A stretch of DNA of 64,000 nt from Alphaproteobacteria bacterium (GTDB lineage Bacteria > Pseudomonadota > Alphaproteobacteria > Ferrovibrionales > Ferrovibrionaceae). Shown piece after piece: positions 34,844 to 44,515 of the stretch. Location of the stretch: NCBI GenBank assembly GCA_017307375.1, contig JAFKFH010000008.1, positions 1 through 64,000 on the forward strand, given 5' to 3'. Both the position numbers and the translations under genes were made by a program. Position 1 is the first letter of the stretch, and each line of letters begins with the position of its first letter. The notes under the pieces are model-generated. The model was not told the DNA's origin, did no database searches, and worked only from the letters and a program-made list of their open reading frames with translations.

Positions 34844-35560
34844 ATGACGCGTTATTTCTGCCACGACCATCCCGATGTCCTGACCCTCGAAACCGTGGTC
34901 GCCGACAGCCGGCCCGGTGCCGTGCGGCTGCAGACAAGCCCGTTCCACCCCGGTGGCGGCGGCCAGCTCGCCGATCGCGGGATCCTGCGCTGGCAGGGTG
35001 GAGAGGCCCGCGTCACCGGCTTCGAGGCCGGCGAAGACGGCTACTGGCACATTCTCGACACGCCGGCCGCGCCGCATGGACATGTCGAAGCCCTGGTCGA
35101 CGCGGGTTTTCGCGGCATGCAGACCGAGTTGCATACCGCAACCCATGTGCTGAACGCCCTGGTTTTCCAGAAGTTCGACGGCGCCCTGGTCACCTCGGCG
35201 CAGATGAACGACGACAATACGGCGCGGATGGATTTCGACCTGCCGGATGCCGACAACGACCGTCTTCGCGCGCTCGAAGCCGAGATGAACGAGATCGTCC
35301 GCCAGGACCTCGCCATCCGCTACCGCTATGTCGGAATCGACGAGGCCCGGGCCGAACCCGGTCTGATCCGCAGCCGATCGGTCGCCCCGCCGCCGGATGC
35401 CGAAGGGGGCATCCGCATCGTCGAGATCACGGGGCTGGACGCCCAGGCCTGCGGCGGCACCCATCTGGCGTCGACAGGGCTGAGCCGCCCGTTGAAAATC
35501 CTGAAGATCGAGAACAAGGGCCGGCACAATCGCCGGGTGCGGATCGGCCTGGTCGGCTAG
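34844..35560 (+). CDS. alaX: Alanyl-tRNA editing protein, AlaX family
   Basis: 238 residues. Stand-alone editing domain that hydrolyses mischarged Ser/Gly-tRNA(Ala). It has the zinc motif pair: HTATH (about 98-102) and CGGTH (about 202-206). FHPGGGGQLADRG near residue 30 is the conserved glycine-rich editing loop. The length matches the AlaX-S/M class without the C-Ala domain. The ATG at 34844 is near GAGG upstream. It follows the methyltransferase gene by 48 nt and ends just before a strong hairpin. Confidence 0.88.
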   Translation: MTRYFCHDHPDVLTLETVVADSRPGAVRLQTSPFHPGGGGQLADRGILRWQGGEARVTGFEAGEDGYWHILDTPAAPHGHVEALVDAGFRGMQTELHTATHVLNALVFQKFDGALVTSAQMNDDNTARMDFDLPDADNDRLRALEAEMNEIVRQDLAIRYRYVGIDEARAEPGLIRSRSVAPPPDAEGGIRIVEITGLDAQACGGTHLASTGLSRPLKILKIENKGRHNRRVRIGLVG

Positions 35561-35612: not shown

Positions 35613-36170
35613 TCAGTTATCGATATTGGGCACGACTTCGAGGCGGATGTTGAAGCGCCGCCCTTCGATCTGGTAGCTGTCCAAGACCGTCTTGCCGGCC
35701 ATCACCGCCTGGAAACGGGCGATTTCCCAGGGTTGCTGGGGATAGAGCTTGGTCTTCAGCGCGACCGGATCGCCCTGCGCGGTATCGTCAGACGTCTCGA
35801 TCGACTGCTGCTGCTCGAACCCGGTCAGGGCGCGATGGTTGGCCAGCACCTCGACCGTCTTGTTGTCGGAATCGAGCCGCGCCAGCACCGTCAGACCCGC
35901 CGAGCCGGAATCGAGGGTAATGAAGTCGCCCTTTTCCTTCTCCTTGAACTTGCGGCTGTAGACGAACGGCGTCAGATCGGTGCCCAGCCGCTCCTGGCCG
36001 GTCGGCACATAGAGGTCGACCCGGCGCGGCGGGCTCTGGTCCTTGTTGCCGATCGTCTCGGTGGTCAGCACCACATGCAGGAAGTCGGCACGGGCTTCCG
36101 GCGCCGCTGCAAACGCGGCCACGCCCAGCACGGCGGCGCCGAACATGGCGCGGGACAGGAATCTTTTCAT
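35613..36170 (-). CDS. Secreted protein of unknown function
   Basis: 185 residues from ATG 36170. Signal peptide 1-28 (MKRFLSRAMFGAAVLG core, cleavage after EARA). The mature part is charged with no cysteines: RRVDLYVPTGQERLGTD, SRKFKEKEKGDFITL, QQQSIETSDD and a C-terminal beta-rich segment ending RRFNIRLEVVPNIDN. I recognise no family. Probably periplasmic. Divergent from the binding-protein trio across about 300 nt. Confidence 0.65.
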   Translation of the reverse strand: MKRFLSRAMFGAAVLGVAAFAAAPEARADFLHVVLTTETIGNKDQSPPRRVDLYVPTGQERLGTDLTPFVYSRKFKEKEKGDFITLDSGSAGLTVLARLDSDNKTVEVLANHRALTGFEQQQSIETSDDTAQGDPVALKTKLYPQQPWEIARFQAVMAGKTVLDSYQIEGRRFNIRLEVVPNIDN

Positions 36171-36467
36171 GGGGTACCCCTCTTCTGTAAGAAACGCCGA
36201 TCGGCAGGCGGTGACCCGCGTTCGACCTGAAGACCATAGGCCCGGCCTCGCGCGCGAACTATGACGGCCGTCGCATCCGGCCCCTTCCCCGCCACCTCGG
36301 CCGTATCCTAGCGGCTCGGCGGATGCCATCAAAGCCCTGGTTGCCGGATGATCCTGTGCAAATCAACCGGCCTGGCGCCGGCTTGCCGGCAAACCGGCGC
36401 GATTGCGGGCTTACGCTCGCGCCCTCCCTGCACTACCGTCATGCGATTCCATCTTTCGGACGAATCG
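36171..36467. promoter_or_regulatory. 297-nt divergent gap with alternative hairpins
   Basis: It lies between the leftward secreted-protein gene and the rightward binding-protein trio. At 36375-36400 three CCGGC-type half sites occur: GCGCCGG, GCCGGC and CCGGCGC. The first can pair with either the second (GCCGGC-TT-GCCGGC, 36377-36390) or the third (GCGCCGG with CCGGCGC), so two hairpins exclude each other. No clear promoter boxes and no other gene are visible. Confidence 0.35.
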
Positions 36468-37292
36468 ATGACGCCGTCACGCCGGATCACGTTGCAGGGT
36501 TTGCTGTCGCTGCCGCTCGGGCTGGCAGCGCTGGGATCGGCGGCTGCCGACGAGATCAGTGCCGTCCAGATCGTCGGTACCGGGGCGATGGTCGGCGTAG
36601 TGCGCCGGATAGCGGAAAACTACATGCGCGAGATGCCGCGCAGCGTCGTGACCGTGGCGGAACGGGATTCGCGCCGGTCGCTGCGCGCGGTCCTCACCGG
36701 CTCGACCGATATCGGCCTGTTCACCGCACGGGAACTGCTGCCGCCCGGCGAACCGGGGAAAATCCTGGCGGTATCGACGCTCGGCTGGGATGCCGAGGTG
36801 GTCGTGGTCAACCGCGGCAATCCGGTCGACGGCATATCCCGCGACGACTTGCGACGGATTTATATGGGCGAGATTCGCAACTGGCAGGCGGTCGGCGGTG
36901 CCGATCAGGCAATCACCGTCTATGAAAACCTGCCCGACAGCGGCACTGCCGAGGTCTGGGAGACCCACGTGCTCAAAGGTCCGCGCTTTCTCACGCCCTC
37001 GGCCAAGGTCGTCGATCTGGAGCGCATGCAGGCCGCCGTGATCGCCGAACCCGGGGCAATCGGCCATGTCACCCATGCCCAGATGCACCGCCTGGTCAAG
37101 CCGCTCGGCATCGACGGCGTCACGCCCAGCCGGGCCACGATCCTCGCCGGCAGCTACCAGCCGATGATCGAATTGATGATGGCGACCGCGCAGAACCCGA
37201 GCGAGGCGACCGCTGCCTTCGTGGCCTACGCCCTCGACGCCGCGAAGGGCCAGCGGATCCTGGCCGAGGTCGGCCTGAAGGGCGCCCGATGA
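36468..37292 (+). CDS. PstS-like substrate-binding protein, first of a permease-less trio
   Basis: 274 residues from ATG 36468; earlier in-frame ATGs at 36441 and 36348 give unlikely N-termini. TPSRRITLQGLL followed by a hydrophobic stretch is a Tat-type signal. The mature protein has a PBP-like domain: IVGTGAMVGVVRRIAENY, GSTDIGLFTARELLPPGEPGKILAVSTLGWDAEVVVVNRGNPVDGISRDDLRRIYMGEIRNWQAVGG; the last segment is the classic PstS-superfamily signature. No phosphate-loop residues can be assigned with certainty. The stop overlaps the next start (ATGA). No PstC/A/B genes are nearby. Confidence 0.82.
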   Translation: MTPSRRITLQGLLSLPLGLAALGSAAADEISAVQIVGTGAMVGVVRRIAENYMREMPRSVVTVAERDSRRSLRAVLTGSTDIGLFTARELLPPGEPGKILAVSTLGWDAEVVVVNRGNPVDGISRDDLRRIYMGEIRNWQAVGGADQAITVYENLPDSGTAEVWETHVLKGPRFLTPSAKVVDLERMQAAVIAEPGAIGHVTHAQMHRLVKPLGIDGVTPSRATILAGSYQPMIELMMATAQNPSEATAAFVAYALDAAKGQRILAEVGLKGAR

Positions 37293-38110
37293 ACCGGCGC
37301 CGCGCCCTGGGCTTGGCCGCCGCCGCGCCGCTGATTGCCGGCTGGCGCTGGCCGTTCTCGCGCGACGTCGTGCACCGCGACGCGCTGATCGTCGCCGGAT
37401 CTGGCCGTATGCTGCCTTACAACCGCGACATCGAAGCGTTGTTCGAACAGGAAAACAGCGACATCGACGTGGTCTGCGAGGGGGGCGGCTCCTACCCCGC
37501 GCTGCTGGCGCTGAAGCGCGGGCTGATCGACATTGCCGCGATCAGCCAGGAGTTGAGCCGTCATGACGACGATCCACGGCTGCGGCTGCATCTCGTCGCC
37601 AAGGATGCGGTGGCCCTGATCGTCAATCCGAAGAATCCGATCCAGTCGGTCACCCGCGAAGACCTGCGTGAGATCATGGAAGGCCGGCAGGGCAACTGGG
37701 GCATGTTCGGCGGCGGCGACACCGAGATCGACCTGATCGACCGCCGCGGCGGCGACCCGACCGATCGCGCCGAAGCGGTCGAGACGGTTCTGGGCCATCA
37801 CGAACCCTTCAAGAACGTGGCGGCCTATGTCGGCTCGGATGAGGAAATGATCAAGGCGGTCGCGGCCAACCCCGACGCGCTGGGCTTTTGCGGCTGGGAG
37901 GATCTGACACCTGATGTCCGGCCGCTTGCCATCGCCGGCGTGCCGCTGTCGCGCGAAACGATGCTGTCCGGCAGTTATCCCTTCGCCTGGCCCTATTACT
38001 ACGTCACGCTCGGCCCACCCAATCCGACCATCGACCGTTTCCTGGCCTTCACCCGGACCGAACAGGTCCAGGCGATGCTGGCGAAGGGCGGTTTGCTGAG
38101 GGTCTACTGA
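37289..38110 (+). CDS. Second PstS-like substrate-binding protein
   Basis: 273 residues. NRRRALGLAAAAPLIAG is a likely Tat signal or N-terminal anchor. The PBP-like domain reads LIVAGSGRMLPYNRDIEALFEQENSDIDVVCEGGGSYPALLALKRGLIDIAAISQELS, VALIVNPKNPIQSVTREDLREIMEGRQGNWGMFGG, and LGFCGWEDLTPDVRPLAIAGVPLSRET, where conserved PstS-superfamily features are clear. It is only weakly similar to the preceding protein, so not a recent duplicate. ATGA overlap with the gene before and a TGATG overlap with the gene after give coupled translation. Confidence 0.8.
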   Translation: MNRRRALGLAAAAPLIAGWRWPFSRDVVHRDALIVAGSGRMLPYNRDIEALFEQENSDIDVVCEGGGSYPALLALKRGLIDIAAISQELSRHDDDPRLRLHLVAKDAVALIVNPKNPIQSVTREDLREIMEGRQGNWGMFGGGDTEIDLIDRRGGDPTDRAEAVETVLGHHEPFKNVAAYVGSDEEMIKAVAANPDALGFCGWEDLTPDVRPLAIAGVPLSRETMLSGSYPFAWPYYYVTLGPPNPTIDRFLAFTRTEQVQAMLAKGGLLRVY

Positions 38111-39468
38111 TGGCCGATGAATCCGATCGCCTGCTCAACCAGGCTCTCGACTGGGCCCAGCGTAACCGCTGGGTCCGGCAGGCTGCGGCCGGGCTGCTGG
38201 CCGTGGCCCTCGTCGTCGTCGCCGGCAATTTCGTCTACCAGCTGCTGCCGCGGCACTATCAGTTGACGATCAGTGGCGGCGAGTTCGTCTCCAACCGCCA
38301 CCAGCTCGCCCGCATCCTGCAGGACGAGGGGCATCATCACGGCCTCGACCTGAAGGTCGAGCCGACCTACGGCACGCTCGACGCGCTGGCTCGCGTCTCC
38401 AGGGGTGAGATCGACGCGGCGCTGGTCGTGGTCGGGGGCTATGACGAGACGTTCGACGATATCGTCCACGTCTCGAACGTATCGCCCGAGCTGCTGCACG
38501 CCCTGGTCCGGCCCGAAATCCAGGCGGTCAAGGATATCCGGGGCAAGGTCGTCAATCTCGGCCCCCCGAAGGGGGCGCTGCGCTCGATCGGCCTGACGGT
38601 GCTCAAGTTTTCCGGATTCGAGGCCGGCGTCGATTATTTCGCCACGACGATGGATGCCGAGGAGCTGATCACCACCCGGCCCGACAAGCTGCCCGATGTC
38701 GTTCTCGACAATTCGCTGCTGCCCTCCTACATCGCCGAATTCATGGTGAGCGAGCGGGGCTATCGCCTGCTGGAACTGCCCTTCCCGAATTCGCTGGCCC
38801 TGCGCATGGGCTGGGTCGCCCAGGGGACCATTCCCGGCTACACCTACCGGATTGAACCTGCGGTGCCGCCTGCCGACATTACCACGGTAGGGGTCCGTCT
38901 GCATCTCGTGGCCAACCGGCACGTCGATTCCCACGCCCTCTTCCAGTTGCTCGAAACCCTCTACAGCCCCAACGTCGCGACGCGGGCGCGCATCACGCTT
39001 GACGAGGCGCGGATCAACGAGGCCGCGGCCTATCCGGTATCGGCGGGCACCGTCGCCTATATCGACCGCAACGACCCGCTGCTGTCGTCGAAGACACTCG
39101 ACAAGTTGAAGAACTGGTTCGGTCTGGTCATGTCGGTGATGTCGACGGTGCTGGTCGTCTACAAGTGGCTCAAGGGACCGCCGGCCAAGCCGGAGGAACC
39201 GGAGACCGACGATGCCTTCTACCGCGACCGGATCAAGGATGTCGCGCTGATCGAGGTCGAGGCGCGCGATGCGGCCGCCGGCGACCGGCTGGATGCCAGC
39301 CTGCTGCATCAGCTGGGCGACCGGCTGTCGGCCATCCGCCAGGCAGCGCTTGACCATTTCCCCGACGCCAAGCTTGCCGACCCGAACCTGATCACCGTGC
39401 TGCTGCTGAGTGTCGAAGGCGCGCAGGGCCGGCTGGCCCTGCTCAACCGGCGACTGGGGTCAAGTTAG
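38110..39468 (+). CDS. Membrane-anchored TAXI-type binding protein with cytoplasmic tail
   Basis: 452 residues. TM1 is at about 24-46 (AAAGLLAVALVVVAGNFVY). A TAXI/NMT1-like periplasmic domain spans about 50-330 (LTISGGEFVSNRHQLARILQ, YGTLDALARVSRGEIDAALVVVGG, VKDIRGKVVNLGPPKGALRSIGLTVLKFSGF). TM2 is at about 335-354 (WFGLVMSVMSTVLVVYKWL). The tail, residues 356-452, is a charged helical cytoplasmic segment. Normal TAXI proteins are soluble periplasmic receptors for TRAP transporters. Two membrane helices plus a cytoplasmic tail is unusual and looks more like a receptor. The stop overlaps the phosphoesterase stop in TTAG. Confidence 0.8.
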   Translation: MADESDRLLNQALDWAQRNRWVRQAAAGLLAVALVVVAGNFVYQLLPRHYQLTISGGEFVSNRHQLARILQDEGHHHGLDLKVEPTYGTLDALARVSRGEIDAALVVVGGYDETFDDIVHVSNVSPELLHALVRPEIQAVKDIRGKVVNLGPPKGALRSIGLTVLKFSGFEAGVDYFATTMDAEELITTRPDKLPDVVLDNSLLPSYIAEFMVSERGYRLLELPFPNSLALRMGWVAQGTIPGYTYRIEPAVPPADITTVGVRLHLVANRHVDSHALFQLLETLYSPNVATRARITLDEARINEAAAYPVSAGTVAYIDRNDPLLSSKTLDKLKNWFGLVMSVMSTVLVVYKWLKGPPAKPEEPETDDAFYRDRIKDVALIEVEARDAAAGDRLDASLLHQLGDRLSAIRQAALDHFPDAKLADPNLITVLLLSVEGAQGRLALLNRRLGSS

Positions 39469-40199
39469 GCGCCGACCTGCAGCACCTCCATCTCGTCGCC
39501 GGCCAGGGCCAGCGCGGTCAGCACCCCGGTCGAATAGGCACCGGTATCGATACCGATGCGATTGCGGCGAATGACCGGCCGATCGTTGATCGAATGACCG
39601 TGGACGATCACCTTCTCGAACGGCGCAGGCCAGTCGAGGAAGGGTTCGCGGATCCAGACGAGATCGTCGCTGGTCTGGGCGTGCAGCGGAACACCCGGCC
39701 TGACGCCGGCATGAACGAAGGCATAGCCGCCATAGACGGTCATCGCCGCGAGGCCGCGATAGAAATCGAGATGCGCCACGGGCAGCGCCGCCAGCAGCGC
39801 ATCGCGCAAATCGCGCCGGCCCGCTTCGTCAGACACGGCTGCCGCCGCGCGGGGCAGGCCATAGCTCGATAGCGTCGCCGGGCTCCAGCGCACCCAGTGC
39901 TGGCCCGCCTCAGGATCGTCGAGGAAAGCGAGCATCGCCTGTTCGTGATTGCCGAGCAACGCATGGACGGCAAAGCCCCGCGGCGGATCAAGCACGAGAT
40001 CGACCGTCCCGCGGCTGTCGGGACCGCGATCGATATAGTCGCCAAGATAGATCAGCACCGGCCGGCGGCCCCGGGCATGCACGCCGGCATGGTCGACGAT
40101 CCGGTCGATCAGAACGCGGAGCAGGCCGCTGTGGCCGTGGATGTCGCCGATCGCATAGAGGATCATGTCGTCGGGCACGGCCGCGGGCGCGGCGATCAT
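39465..40199 (-). CDS. Metallophosphoesterase (Ser/Thr-phosphatase-like)
   Basis: 244 residues from ATG 40199 (GAGGGGGG just upstream); the frame is also open to a GTG at 40268. Dinuclear metal motifs in order: GDIHG (about 18-22), GDYIDRG (about 53-59), GNHE (about 83-86), and a histidine-rich C-terminus with VHAGVRP and VHGHS. The order GDxHG, GDxxDRG, GNHE matches the PPP/PrpA/ApaH-type superfamily. It acts on phosphoproteins or Ap4A-like molecules; the target is unknown. Convergent with the binding-protein trio. Confidence 0.88.
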   Translation of the reverse strand: MIAAPAAVPDDMILYAIGDIHGHSGLLRVLIDRIVDHAGVHARGRRPVLIYLGDYIDRGPDSRGTVDLVLDPPRGFAVHALLGNHEQAMLAFLDDPEAGQHWVRWSPATLSSYGLPRAAAAVSDEAGRRDLRDALLAALPVAHLDFYRGLAAMTVYGGYAFVHAGVRPGVPLHAQTSDDLVWIREPFLDWPAPFEKVIVHGHSINDRPVIRRNRIGIDTGAYSTGVLTALALAGDEMEVLQVGA

Positions 40200-40332
40200 G
40201 CCCCCCTCGCGCTTCTTCCTGGCGCTCACCCCCAGGCAGTCGAGCCATCCCGCAAGCGAGTACGCCACTGCATTCCGATCCTTGCACCGCCGATATCCAC
40301 CTACGGAAACTAGGCAGCCGGCAGTGCGTTGT

Positions 40333-41397
40333 CTATGCCGGGACGATCACGGCCGCGTCAGCCGCGATCGCCACCGCCACCGCGGCGCCGGCCGCCAGGG
40401 GGCGGGCGACGTCGGGATCGGAAACCAGGAGATCGCCGTCGACACCCTCCAGGCGGACCACGTATTCGATGTGGCTGCCGAGATAAGCGGCCTTGGCGAT
40501 GCGCCCGTCGATTTCGCCGTCGCCGGCCGGACGCCGGTACAAGCTGAACCCCTGCGGACGGATCGCCAGCTCGGCGCGTCCCGGTCCGAGGCCCCGATGG
40601 GCCAGATCGAGGGTCATGCTGCCCAGGCGCACGCGCGCATTCGGCCCTTCGACCTGCTCGATGACCACCGGCAGCAGGTTGGCATTGCCGATGAAGTCGG
40701 CGATGAACCGGCTTTGCGGCTGTTCGTAGAGTTCGCGTGGGCTTCCATCCTGGACGACCACCGCCGCATGCATGACGACGATGCGGTCGGAAACCGCCAG
40801 CGCCTCCTCCTGGTCGTGGGTGACATAGACCACCGTGAGGCCGAGGGCCTGCTGCAGGTCACGTATGTCTTCGCGGACCCGCCGGCGCAGCTTGGCATCG
40901 AGATTGGACAGCGGCTCGTCGAACAATAGCACCTTGGGCTCGAGGACGATGGCGCGGGCCACGGCGACGCGCTGCTGCTGGCCGCCGGAAAGTTCGCTGG
41001 GCAGGCGCCGCTCATAGCCGGCAAGGCCGACCAGGGCCAGTTTGTCGGCGGCCTGCGCCGCGGCGTCTGATCGACGCATGCCCGAGGCCACGAGGCCGTA
41101 GCAGACATTCTCCAGCACCGTCATGTGGGGAAACAGCGCGTAGGACTGGAACACCATGCTGACGTCGCGTTCCGCCGCCGAGGCCAGGGTGACATCCTGG
41201 CCGTCGATCAGGACCCGCCCCTCGCTCGGATGTTCGAGACCCGCGATCAGCCGCAGGGTCGAGGTCTTGCCGCAGCCAGAGGGCCCGAGCAGCGTCACCA
41301 GCGTGCCGCGCGCGATCGTGAAACTGACATCGGCGACGGCCGTAACCGCGCCGTAGCGCTTGGTGACATGCTGGAATTCGACGGCAGGAACGGTCAT
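40333..41397 (-). CDS. ABC importer ATPase (AfuC/FbpC-like)
   Basis: 354 residues from ATG 41397, which overlaps the permease stop (ATGA). Walker A LLGPSGCGKTST, Q-loop VFQSYALFPHM, signature LSGGQQQRVAVARAI, Walker B VLLFDEPLSNLDAKLR, H-loop YVTHDQEEAL, and a C-terminal TOBE domain. The frame stays open into the permease gene region, but the ATGA start and the domain boundary fix the gene. Last gene of a three-gene importer operon (binding protein, double permease, ATPase). Confidence 0.92.
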   Translation of the reverse strand: MTVPAVEFQHVTKRYGAVTAVADVSFTIARGTLVTLLGPSGCGKTSTLRLIAGLEHPSEGRVLIDGQDVTLASAAERDVSMVFQSYALFPHMTVLENVCYGLVASGMRRSDAAAQAADKLALVGLAGYERRLPSELSGGQQQRVAVARAIVLEPKVLLFDEPLSNLDAKLRRRVREDIRDLQQALGLTVVYVTHDQEEALAVSDRIVVMHAAVVVQDGSPRELYEQPQSRFIADFIGNANLLPVVIEQVEGPNARVRLGSMTLDLAHRGLGPGRAELAIRPQGFSLYRRPAGDGEIDGRIAKAAYLGSHIEYVVRLEGVDGDLLVSDPDVARPLAAGAAVAVAIAADAAVIVPA

Positions 41398-43487
41398 GCC
41401 TTCACCACCTGAGGGGCTGTGCGGCGGCCGATGCGGCGTTCGCCCACCAGCGCCTGGATCAGCAGCAGCGCACTTACCATGATCACGATCAGTACCGCCG
41501 AATAGACGATCGCGAGGCCGTATTCGCCGAACTCGGCGCGGCCGACGATGTAGACGGTCGCGAGGTTGTATTCGCCTGAGATCAGGAAGATGACCGCGCT
41601 GACCGAGGTTACCGCGCGGACGAAGGCATAGACCATCGAGGTCGCGATGGCCGGCCGCAGGATCGGCAGGATGACGCGACGCAGCGTCGTCGCCGACCGT
41701 GCCCCCAGCGTCAGCGAGGCTTCGTCGAGACTGCGATCGACCTGCGAGAGATTGGCGATGCCGGCGCGGATGCCGACCGGCATGTTGCGGAACACGAAGG
41801 CGATGATCAGGATCACCGCCGTGCCGGTCAGTTCGAACGGCGGCACGTTGAACGCGAGGATGTAGCTGACCCCGATCACCGTGCCGGGGATGGCAAAGGA
41901 CATCATCGTCAGGAATTCGAAGGTGGCCCGGCCGGCAAAGTTCTGACGGTTCAGCAGATAGGCAGTGAGGATGCCGAGCCCGGCGGTCAGCGGCATCGCC
42001 AGCAACGCCACCTGCAGCGTCGTCAGCAGCGACGACCAGGCCGAGCCGGCGAGGAACCAGCCACCGGCCCCCTGCTTGATGGCGAACGCGGTCATGACGT
42101 ATTCGAGCGTCGGGGTCGGGTCGGTGCCCACCGCCTTGACGAAGCCGCCGACCAGGATGACGCCGTAGACTGCGGCCGTCAGGGCAAGCCACGGCAGGAC
42201 GATGGCCAGGCAGGCGACATGAAGCGGCCGGGCCAGCGGCAGCGGCAGGCCGGAATCCCCCTTGCCCGCCACCGTCACGTAGCTGCGCCGGCCCAGCCAC
42301 AGCCGCTGGGCCAGGAAGGCGGTCAAGGTGAAGGCGAGCAACACGATGGCCAGCACGGCCGCCTTGCCCTGGTCATGGGCCGCCCCCACAACCGCGAAAT
42401 AGATCGATGTGGAGAGAACCCGGAAGTTGCCGCCGATCATCATCGGATTGCCGAAATCGGCGAGACTCTCGATGAAGGCGATCAGGAACGCGTTGGCAAG
42501 ACCAGGCCGGATCAACGGCCAGGTGACGCGCCGGAAAGTCATCCAGCGCCCGGCGCGCAAGGTCTGCGACGCTTCCTCCATGCTGGGGCTTACCCCCTGC
42601 AGGACACCGAGCAGGACGAGATAGGAAATCGGCGTGAAGGCCAGCAGCTGGGCAATGGTCAGGCCCGGCATGCCGTAGATCCAGCGGCTGGCCGGGATGC
42701 CGAGCCAGTCGCGCAGCGCCACCGTGACCATACCGACACGGCCGAACAGCAGGATCAGCGCAAGGCCGATGACAAACGGCGGCGTTATCACCGGCAGCAC
42801 GGACATGACCTTGAGGATCCGCGGGAACGGAAACCGGCTGCGCGCCGAGATCAGCGCGAAGGCGAGGCCCAACAGCGTCGAGAGCAAACCGACCACGACG
42901 GCCAGCGCCAGCGAATTCCAGGCAACCCCGCAGGCCCGCCCGCCGGACAGGCAGGCCAGACCCCAGATCGAACTGTCGGCGATCTGGTCGGCGAACCGCA
43001 GGAAATCGGCCTGACCGTCCGGGTCCTGGAAGGCCGATACCAGGATGGTGGCCACCGGAAACCCGACGAACACCAGGATCGAGCCGCAGACCAGGGCAAC
43101 GGCGCCAACGGTGAAGGCGTCGCCCTTGCACCATCCCTGCCGTGCCAGGCCATAGGCGGCAAGCATCGTCGCAGCCAGCGCATAGACCAGCGCGCCCCAG
43201 CCCAGCCCAGGCTGGCCGGCGATGGCGAAGCCCTGCACCAGAAGCCAAGCGAGGCCTGCGCCGCCGGCGGCGGTGAGCCAGCGCGGCCGGTTGCGTGCTG
43301 CAGTGGCGCCGATCAGCGGCACGACCAGCGGCAACAGCCAGAAGCGCCCGCCCAGGCCATGGGCGATCAGCGGCAGCGGGCCGCCGGCAGCATCCAGCCG
43401 GTACCAGGGCAGGGCCAGCACGGCGACCGCGCCGACTGCGATCCACGCCCAGATGCCGTGCGCCGACGTCCCGCGGGCGCGGATCAT
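41394..43487 (-). CDS. Double ABC permease (AfuB/FbpB-like)
   Basis: 697 residues. About 14 hydrophobic segments arranged as two permease halves on one chain. Two EAA loops are visible: EEASQTLRAGRWMTFRRVTWPLIRPG in the first half and DEASLTLGARSATTLRRVILPILRP in the second. This fused form is typical of AfuB and FbpB-type importers. An N-terminal extra region of about 200 residues contains three or four helices. It overlaps both neighbours by ATGA. The same frame runs on far upstream without stop, but this start matches the overlap. Confidence 0.9.
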   Translation of the reverse strand: MIRARGTSAHGIWAWIAVGAVAVLALPWYRLDAAGGPLPLIAHGLGGRFWLLPLVVPLIGATAARNRPRWLTAAGGAGLAWLLVQGFAIAGQPGLGWGALVYALAATMLAAYGLARQGWCKGDAFTVGAVALVCGSILVFVGFPVATILVSAFQDPDGQADFLRFADQIADSSIWGLACLSGGRACGVAWNSLALAVVVGLLSTLLGLAFALISARSRFPFPRILKVMSVLPVITPPFVIGLALILLFGRVGMVTVALRDWLGIPASRWIYGMPGLTIAQLLAFTPISYLVLLGVLQGVSPSMEEASQTLRAGRWMTFRRVTWPLIRPGLANAFLIAFIESLADFGNPMMIGGNFRVLSTSIYFAVVGAAHDQGKAAVLAIVLLAFTLTAFLAQRLWLGRRSYVTVAGKGDSGLPLPLARPLHVACLAIVLPWLALTAAVYGVILVGGFVKAVGTDPTPTLEYVMTAFAIKQGAGGWFLAGSAWSSLLTTLQVALLAMPLTAGLGILTAYLLNRQNFAGRATFEFLTMMSFAIPGTVIGVSYILAFNVPPFELTGTAVILIIAFVFRNMPVGIRAGIANLSQVDRSLDEASLTLGARSATTLRRVILPILRPAIATSMVYAFVRAVTSVSAVIFLISGEYNLATVYIVGRAEFGEYGLAIVYSAVLIVIMVSALLLIQALVGERRIGRRTAPQVVKA

Positions 43488-44515
43488 CCGCCTTGCTTGA
43501 CCTCCTTGGTCCAGCGCGACAGCAGCTTGGCGCGCTCGGCCGGCGAGCCGAAGCGGGCGAAGTCGTAGTTGATCAGCTTGATCTTGGAAATGTCGGGAGA
43601 TTCGGGCGGCACCGGCGTCGCGGTGTTCGACGGCATCTGGTAGCTGCCATTGGCCGCCGCCACCTTCTGCGCGTTCGGCGTCAGCGCCCATTCGTAGAAC
43701 TTCCTGGCCTCTTCGGGATGGCGCGCGCCCTGGATCAGGCTCATCGAGCCGATCTCGAAACCGGTGCCTTCGCAGGGCGAGACGACCTGGACAGTCTTCG
43801 TATTCTTTGCCGCATCGACCAGATCGTGCTGAAAGGCGATACCGACCATCGTCTCGCCGCGGCCGACCGCCTGGGCGGGCGCGGCACCGGCCGACGTATA
43901 TTGGTCGACGTTCTTGCCCAGCGCTTTCAGATAGTCGAAGCCCTTCTCCTCGCCCATCAGCTGGACCAGGGTCGCAAGCATCGTGTAGGTGGTGCCCGAG
44001 GAATTCGGGTCGGCCATCTGGACCTCGCCCTTGAACTCGGGCTTGATCAGATCGGCCCAGCAGGCTGGCGGCGCCAGCTTGCGGCGTTTCAGCTCCGGCT
44101 CGTTGTAGCCGAACCCGAGCGCGCCCATGTAGATGCCGACCGTACGCCAGCCCGACAGTTCCGCCTGGCCCCTGGCCCAATCGCGCAACTGGTCGAGCTG
44201 CGGTGACTTGTAGGGTTCGGTCAACTGGTCGGCCGCCGCCTGCAGATGCGGATCGCCGGTGCCGCCATACCAGATGTCGCCGCGCGGATTGGCCTTCTCG
44301 GCGCGCAGGCGGGCATAGATTTCGCCGGCGGACTGCCGCACCATGTCGACCTTGATGCCGGTTTCCTGGGTAAAGGCGGTGACCGCGGCGCGGCACCATT
44401 GCTCGTTGACCCCGCAATACAGTACCAGGGTCTCGGCGGCGCGCGCCTCGACGCCCGCGAATGTCGCGGCGCCGGCCAGCAGGCCCAGCGCCCATGCCTT
44501 CCTGACAGTCATCAT
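43484..44515 (-). CDS. Phosphorylated-sugar-type ABC binding protein (AfuA-like; SBP family 6)
   Basis: 343 residues, starting MM (ATG 44515 or 44512; GGGAG lies just upstream). Signal peptide to about residue 27. Family-6 fold: LVLYCGVNEQWCRAAVTAF, GDIWYGGTGDPHLQAA, SSGTTYTMLATLVQLMGEEKGFDYLK. The adjacent-tyrosine pair of ferric-binding FbpA is absent. Instead FQHD (H230, D231) and GFEIG (E254) keep the order and spacing I recall for the sugar-contact residues of AfuA, the hexose-6-phosphate receptor. I therefore infer a phosphorylated sugar or polyol ligand. First gene of the importer operon; its promoter region faces the RpiR regulator. Confidence 0.8.
   Translation of the reverse strand: MMTVRKAWALGLLAGAATFAGVEARAAETLVLYCGVNEQWCRAAVTAFTQETGIKVDMVRQSAGEIYARLRAEKANPRGDIWYGGTGDPHLQAAADQLTEPYKSPQLDQLRDWARGQAELSGWRTVGIYMGALGFGYNEPELKRRKLAPPACWADLIKPEFKGEVQMADPNSSGTTYTMLATLVQLMGEEKGFDYLKALGKNVDQYTSAGAAPAQAVGRGETMVGIAFQHDLVDAAKNTKTVQVVSPCEGTGFEIGSMSLIQGARHPEEARKFYEWALTPNAQKVAAANGSYQMPSNTATPVPPESPDISKIKLINYDFARFGSPAERAKLLSRWTKEVKQGG

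Follow-up and report, generated by a model that had tools for sequence, protein, structure and literature searches.

What can a set of substrate-binding proteins do when no transporter is encoded with them? The question is posed by three overlapping genes, here termed A, B and C, in a 64,000-nucleotide stretch of contig JAFKFH010000008.1 (the window) from an alphaproteobacterium of the family Ferrovibrionaceae. A preliminary description of the locus took A and B for PstS-like sensors exported by the twin-arginine translocation (Tat) pathway, and C for a membrane-anchored TAXI-like receptor on which they dock and which signals through a cytoplasmic tail. Solitary binding proteins are frequent, and most of them lack an explanation; in this three-gene case the binding proteins belong together without a common transporter gene, which makes the role of transporter-free binding proteins directly testable. 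On comparative sequence grounds the triplet is a real, rare and patchily distributed unit. The explanation that we tentatively place first is a membrane-held complex of three receptors engaged in transporter-independent sensing or capture of small anionic ligands.

Conservation and distribution of the triplet

In profile searches a strong match to C was defined by an E value below 1e-100, the next best matches lying near 1e-18. Strong homologues were found in 18 distinct genomes representing seven genera, four families and two classes (the window's own copy included), and at all 18 loci A, B and C stand in the same order and on the same strand, separated by gaps of -4 to +22 bp. This is more than chance would produce, and chance adjacency was rejected. 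A neighbourhood search had been proposed in the preliminary description as a check on conservation; now that it has been run, the idea that the triplet is not conserved is rejected, and the locus may fairly be read as a conserved unit of two PstS-like receptors with a TAXI-like receptor held in the membrane. At the 17 other loci identity to the window proteins is 36-46% for C, 28-37% for B and 24-35% for A. When the open reading frames (ORFs) around the 18 loci were compared, only the A/B and C clusters were present in all seven genera, the other groups of neighbours being frames antisense to A, B or C, generic ATP-binding cassette (ABC) or kinase similarities, or genes of two to three genera.

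The triplet is under purifying selection, the A proteins that lack a signal peptide (see below) included. Nonsynonymous to synonymous substitution ratios (dN/dS; Nei-Gojobori) for seven locus pairs lie between 0.035 and 0.394 in 20 of 21 gene comparisons; the remaining one was not computable owing to saturated dS, and the ratios are rough where dS exceeds 1.5, as in several comparisons within genus g499. For the signal-less A proteins the ratios are 0.08-0.11 in g499 and 0.31 in genus g50. The distance matrices of A, B and C correlate with r values of 0.94-0.97 over all 18 loci and 0.82-0.94 over the eight alphaproteobacterial-side loci, a correlation that can arise from common ancestry alone.

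The sampled genome sets overlap, and scoring in the large samples was confined to a few candidates from each genome. The window genome possesses one copy of C and is the only member of its order with a strong match (1/18), nine others giving weak ones. The class sample contains two strong matches among 385 genomes (the window genome and genome G060). By profile, the phylum sample contains four among 398, these two among them, and strong matches are present in 9/297 genomes of the order and 8/55 of the family of G060, in 8/249 of the family of G868, and in G868 itself as the sole case in its class sample (1/360), as is G633 in its family (1/73). Plasmid records yielded no relative of C. Two scans of genome contigs were made for C; the first confirmed none and the second two loci, apparently on the contigs of G060 and G628. 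Genomes of g499 are 1.7-2.1 Mb in size, and those of its loci for which GC content was determined have 46%.

A thioredoxin-TPR protein, a LON-like protein, a small protein and a FAD monooxygenase (the second and third named by eye) are encoded by one block of genes that adjoins the triplet in both G633 (family f165) and G684 (family f44). The common block points to an old placement that was kept vertically, with losses, at least in these two genomes.

Weaker matches to C (E about 1e-18 or worse) were read at loci L012, L038-L045, L068-L070 and L097-L104, where no A or B match stands alongside; these are single transmembrane-TAXI-type or ordinary TAXI genes. Those at L012, L068-L070 and L097-L103 encode proteins of approximately 420-490 residues, in many of which the N-terminus contains hydrophobic segments, and such single TAXI genes are scattered in Pseudomonadota without PstS-like partners.

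Domain assignment and ligand sites

Both A and B score above the cut-off of PF12849 (PBP_like_2; 78 and 75 bits, cut-off 27), which upholds their earlier designation as PstS-like, and both fall below that of the NCBIfam PstS model TIGR02136 (115.6 and 99.9; cut-off 206.6). Over their whole length they match small PstS phosphate-binding proteins (PDB 4gd5 and 1twy; E values 2.4e-51 and 1.8e-49). The two differ from these in that they are not part of a pst operon, that A is without the site arginine, and that A is often without a signal peptide.

Site positions in A and B were taken from an alignment to the PstS chain 4gd5. The residues presumed to hold phosphate are the arginine of the SREDGSGT loop, the Ser/Thr of the GSS loop and the acidic residue of SRDL. 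B has the arginine in 17 of the 18 proteins, Ser/Thr in 17 and Asp/Glu in 16. In A the arginine is never present, its place being taken by His in the eight g499 proteins, and Ser/Thr is found in all 18. B thus seems to keep most of a phosphate-type site, and A may be its degenerate partner.

Canonical phosphate import was rejected, as the sites are altered and separate pst-like operons exist in both triplet genomes examined. In the window genome this operon consists of a PF12849 gene, two permease genes and one ATPase gene; that of G868 encodes the same set together with PhoU and a response regulator. The simplest phosphate-importer reading is excluded by these operons.

C scores above the cut-off of PF16868 (NMT1_3; 39.6, cut-off 27) and below that of TIGR02122 (TRAP_TAXI; 32.6, cut-off 84.35), and is best regarded as a divergent TAXI/NMT1_3 domain placed between two predicted membrane helices. 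The earlier account of its layout was fair. R23, ahead of the first helix, is invariant and the basic residues at positions 352 and 355 are present in every C protein, from which we surmise that both termini are probably cytoplasmic.

Among solved structures, those closest to C in profile comparison are the TAXI proteins VcGluP and TtGluBP (PDB 8s4j and 1us4) of the TAXI-type tripartite ATP-independent periplasmic (TRAP) transporters. According to the accessible part of PMC11574862, the ligand residues of VcGluP include Y45, S75, Q93 and E125, and no arginine is used. C retains the likeness at S75 (Ser/Thr in 18/18); the E125 position is Glu in 12/18 and Gln in 6/18. C departs from VcGluP at the key glutamate positions Y45, where an ungapped extension of the alignment never gives Tyr, and Q93, where the window protein has Val (Gln in 14/18), and in that no TRAP membrane gene recurs beside it. 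H64 and R232 are invariant in C, a weak hint of an anionic ligand; weak because VcGluP, in the account cited, employs no arginine.

Export of A and B

Signal peptides were called from the twin-arginine (RR) motif, from hydrophobicity and by eye. A signal-like N-terminus is present on A at seven of the 18 loci (the window, where it is of RR type, L061-L065 and L067). The other 11 A proteins (L037, L060, L066 and the eight of g499) exhibit no recognizable signal peptide, L066 being the least clear because its N-terminus is weakly hydrophobic. In g499 the longest ORF available for A starts no more than 5 bp from where the upstream gene ends. B, by comparison, has an RR motif at its N-terminus at all loci but one (17/18; NRRRALG in the window); the exception is L067, where the N-termini of both A and B are Sec-like. 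The preliminary description of two Tat-exported soluble sensors agrees with the window, the RR motifs of A and B being its sole basis there; as a rule it fails, since A is signal-less at 11 loci.

Each of these 11 signal-less A proteins is encoded beside an RR-bearing B, which fits Tat hitchhiking, in which one partner bears the RR signal and the other travels with it. The window does not belong to this set because its A also has an RR motif. Where A is signal-less it may possibly be exported on the Tat signal of B. Hitchhiking is known for hydrogenases and formate dehydrogenases in the available text of PMC10924467, and the pairs resemble hydrogenase-2 in that a protein without a signal is encoded beside a twin-arginine partner. 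They differ from the redox enzymes treated there in that both members are binding proteins, whose joint export is presumptive. A signal-less A beside a twin-arginine sister provides a ready-made opportunity to test Tat hitchhiking in proteins other than redox enzymes.

Neighbouring genes and a possible carrier

The ORF comparison of the 18 loci revealed no ABC or TRAP permease common to related loci, no shared pstC, pstA or pstB around the triplet, and no recurring gltS beside or fused to the TAXI gene, unlinked gltS not having been searched for. A TRAP membrane component (DctQM) does not recur over the seven genera and is absent from the annotated neighbours in the window. Two linked candidates are present in single genera. 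In all eight g499 loci the order is two-partner secretion (TPS) exoprotein, bestrophin-like protein, A, B, C, the bestrophin-like gene, a candidate channel, abutting A; one of the exoprotein genes is truncated at a contig end and another at the limit of the sequence retrieved, and the annotations rest on Pfam for two loci and on similarity for the rest. A candidate transporter of the SulP type that includes a cNMP-binding domain is encoded divergently from A in both g50 genomes. The earlier account held that a linked permease in related genomes would speak against it, and this is half the case: one genus has a bestrophin-like gene and a second a divergent SulP gene, and none is shared by all.

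These genes speak for a less likely explanation, namely that the triplet supplies the binding proteins of an uptake system, the carrier or channel of which is lineage-specific (bestrophin-like in g499, SulP in g50) or lies elsewhere (unlinked, in the window genome), much as in TAXI-GltS, for which the accessible portion of PMC12344293 gives the precedent of a TAXI protein serving a non-TRAP carrier. No transporter is common to the seven genera, however, and the other five have no recurring adjacent one; a single carrier served by three receptors would be unusual, and a binding protein without a recognizable signal peptide at 11 of 18 loci is awkward for such a role.

The exoprotein genes of g499, together with a TpsB gene after C at two of the eight loci and the loss of the phosphate-site arginine from every A, could also suggest that the complex serves the envelope or protein secretion (e.g., handling of TPS exoproteins), its binding folds having become structural adaptors. 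We consider this improbable, as no TPS relative appeared in the shared-neighbour comparison of the other six genera and B retains an anion-type site.

A linked sensor kinase, as expected of binding-protein-dependent sensors of the BctC or TorT type, is not conserved over the 18 loci, the cases noted being a PstS-like/kinase pair at L064 and other kinases near the G060 triplet. At L064 (4417-6543; G527, a complete genome) a PstS-like protein directly followed by a histidine-kinase-like membrane protein is encoded just upstream of A; the pair is a possible two-gene sensor, related in theme. At L037 (3331-7223; G060) the SulP gene, with STAS and cNMP-binding domains, overlaps a gene for a FixG-like, ferredoxin-type protein and is divergent from the triplet; it is also present in G628.

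The C-terminal tail of C

In the window C has 98 residues past the second hydrophobic segment, in agreement with the roughly 97 first estimated, and they were modeled as three helices. Mean values of the predicted local distance difference test (pLDDT), taken in blocks, are 73-89 for residues 371-420, 60 for 421-430 and 71-74 for 431-450. The tail is probably folded in this model, and it is not universal: 83-99 residues follow the second helix in nine of the 18 proteins, 39-61, mostly acidic, in the eight of g499, and 15 in L066 (G684). Of the disordered and dispensable tail that the preliminary description thought would undermine it, dispensability applies to half of the loci, nine of the 18 being without the long tail. 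A tail missing from nine of 18 proteins cannot be the general output.

The TAXI domain is poorly modeled (mean pLDDT 46; three sequences). A Foldseek search with the model of C gave a best E value of 3.8e-4 and a TAXI protein at rank 2, with all listed TM-scores below 0.4; owing to the quality of the model the list was not used beyond its agreement with a binding-protein fold.

The preliminary model in full, two soluble sensors docking on C and C signalling inward through its tail, is narrowly the least probable of the four explanations (after the three-receptor complex, the carrier module and the envelope or secretion role, in that order): the two-helix topology and three-helix tail of the window, the L064 pair, and known signalling by binding proteins such as BctC-BctE (available text of PMC5812351) are in its favor, yet as a general rule it is not supported, because the tail is reduced to 15 residues in G684 and replaced by a mostly acidic stretch in eight proteins, despite conservation of A, B and the remainder of C at these loci, and because A is not evidently exported at 11 loci.

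A possible three-receptor complex

The three-receptor complex is preferred because A, B and C stay together at all 18 loci in seven genera and two classes while nothing else is common to all the genera, and because the distance matrices correlate, dN/dS is low, every signal-less A has an RR-bearing B beside it, B keeps most residues of a phosphate-type site, and separate pst-like operons exist in the two triplet genomes examined. In such a complex C would be held in the inner membrane by its two helices, with the TAXI-like cleft facing the periplasm. A and B would be made in step through translational coupling, pair with each other and dock on C; B would reach the periplasm by means of its RR (Tat-type) N-terminus, and a signal-less A would hitchhike on it. 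B would carry most of an oxyanion site, A acting as its degenerate partner, and C would bind a different, probably anionic, ligand. Contacts between proteins might then relay occupancy to partners that differ by lineage, in some the helical tail of C and in others the bestrophin-like protein.

Several observations weigh against this picture. The 18 loci are not independent, eight coming from one genus (g499), and the distribution is patchy even inside genera, the triplet being found in one of three genomes of g368. The 11 signal-less A proteins belong to three genera only, and hence to few events, so that their independence is limited; a cytoplasmic A in these lineages would fit equally well. 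No partner kinase or effector is conserved, the poor model of the TAXI domain has to be counted here, and so do the linked candidate channel of g499 and the linked candidate transporter of g50.

Relation to known systems

The triplet resembles TAXI-GltS of Bordetella pertussis (BP0403; accessible part of PMC12344293) in having a TAXI protein of odd domain layout that is translationally coupled to the adjacent gene, membrane-attached and without TRAP membrane genes. In TAXI-GltS, as described there, the partner is the GltS symporter and BP0403, a lipoprotein, has an additional N-terminal domain, whereas the triplet has no shared carrier, C has two membrane helices, and its constant partners are two PstS-like proteins. 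A protein reminiscent of the elongated BP0403 was noted at L042 (6643-8160; G362); this 505-residue protein starts like a lipoprotein and has its NMT1_3 domain (217-494) at the C-terminal end. BctC-BctDE, in the available text of PMC5812351, is similar in that a binding protein informs a regulatory system, as is proposed here; BctC differs in that it is a tripartite tricarboxylate transporter (TTT) protein that has a transporter of its own and is linked to a two-component system, while the triplet is without a conserved linked kinase.

The preliminary description knew of no described system of this type, and searches of the open-licence PubMed Central literature listed none. Membrane-anchored TAXI binding proteins are reportedly the subject of Roden et al. 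(2023), which could bear on C. The triplet is best seen as a variation on orphan binding proteins. It is unlikely, a minority chance, that it represents a receptor kind not yet described: three Venus-flytrap proteins in one membrane-held complex, with no ABC, TRAP or TTT transporter, that would read more than one anion at once and in some lineages include a signal-less member that crosses the membrane folded on its sister's Tat signal.

The locus in the window and side observations

The start-stop coupling of the three genes was correctly described, the coordinates being right and the ATGA and TGATG overlaps confirmed (Table 1). The remark that no transporter lies on either side is true of the nearest genes; a complete ABC importer begins approximately 0.9 kb past C, one gene beyond the triplet and on the opposite strand.

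Table 1. Coordinates of the triplet, its parts and its neighbours in the window.
Feature	Coordinates	Strand	Remarks
Gene A	36468..37292	+	PstS-like binding protein, 274 aa; PF12849 1.3e-21; homologues adjoin C in 18/18 loci
A N-terminus	36468..36548	+	Signal-peptide-like, RR motif SRRITLQ; predicted from sequence and hydrophobicity; missing from A in 11/18 loci
Gene B	37289..38110	+	PstS-like, RR (Tat-type) N-terminus, 273 aa; PF12849 1.1e-20; phosphate-type site mostly retained
Gene C	38110..39468	+	TAXI/NMT1_3-like, 452 aa, two predicted membrane helices; PF16868 6.4e-10
C first membrane helix (predicted)	38182..38238	+	Residues ~25-43; hydrophobicity maximum in 18/18 C proteins
C TAXI-like domain, predicted periplasmic	38305..38970	+	Pfam bounds, residues 66-287
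C second membrane helix (predicted)	39115..39171	+	Residues ~336-354; hydrophobicity maximum, 18/18; positions 352 and 355 basic in 18/18
C tail, predicted cytoplasmic three-helix region	39172..39465	+	Residues 355-452; not universal
ATGA stop-start overlap A/B	37289..37292	+	
TGATG stop-start overlap B/C	38108..38112	+	
AlaX-like gene	34844-35560		Near neighbour of triplet
Gene without Pfam match	35613-36332	-	Near neighbour of triplet
Metallophosphoesterase gene	39465-40268	-	Near neighbour of triplet
Complete ABC importer	40333-44515	-	Own binding protein, fused permease, ATPase with TOBE domain

A role as a defence system was rejected: PADLOC matched neither A, B and C nor any of three neighbours taken from other loci. 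A lipoprotein-like family without a Pfam match lies beside the triplet at L061 (5522-7854; G633) and L067 (10477-11577; G614); these are its sole copies there, and it was not found in the other triplet genomes of the set of 18. In G633 a gene for an arginine-kinase-type ATP:guanido phosphotransferase separates the lipoprotein-like gene from the triplet. At L062 (5775-8617; G680) a CU044_2847-family protein is encoded next to a large ORF, the start of which appears trypsin-like by eye; this pair follows the triplet and a thiE gene and may be a separate system.

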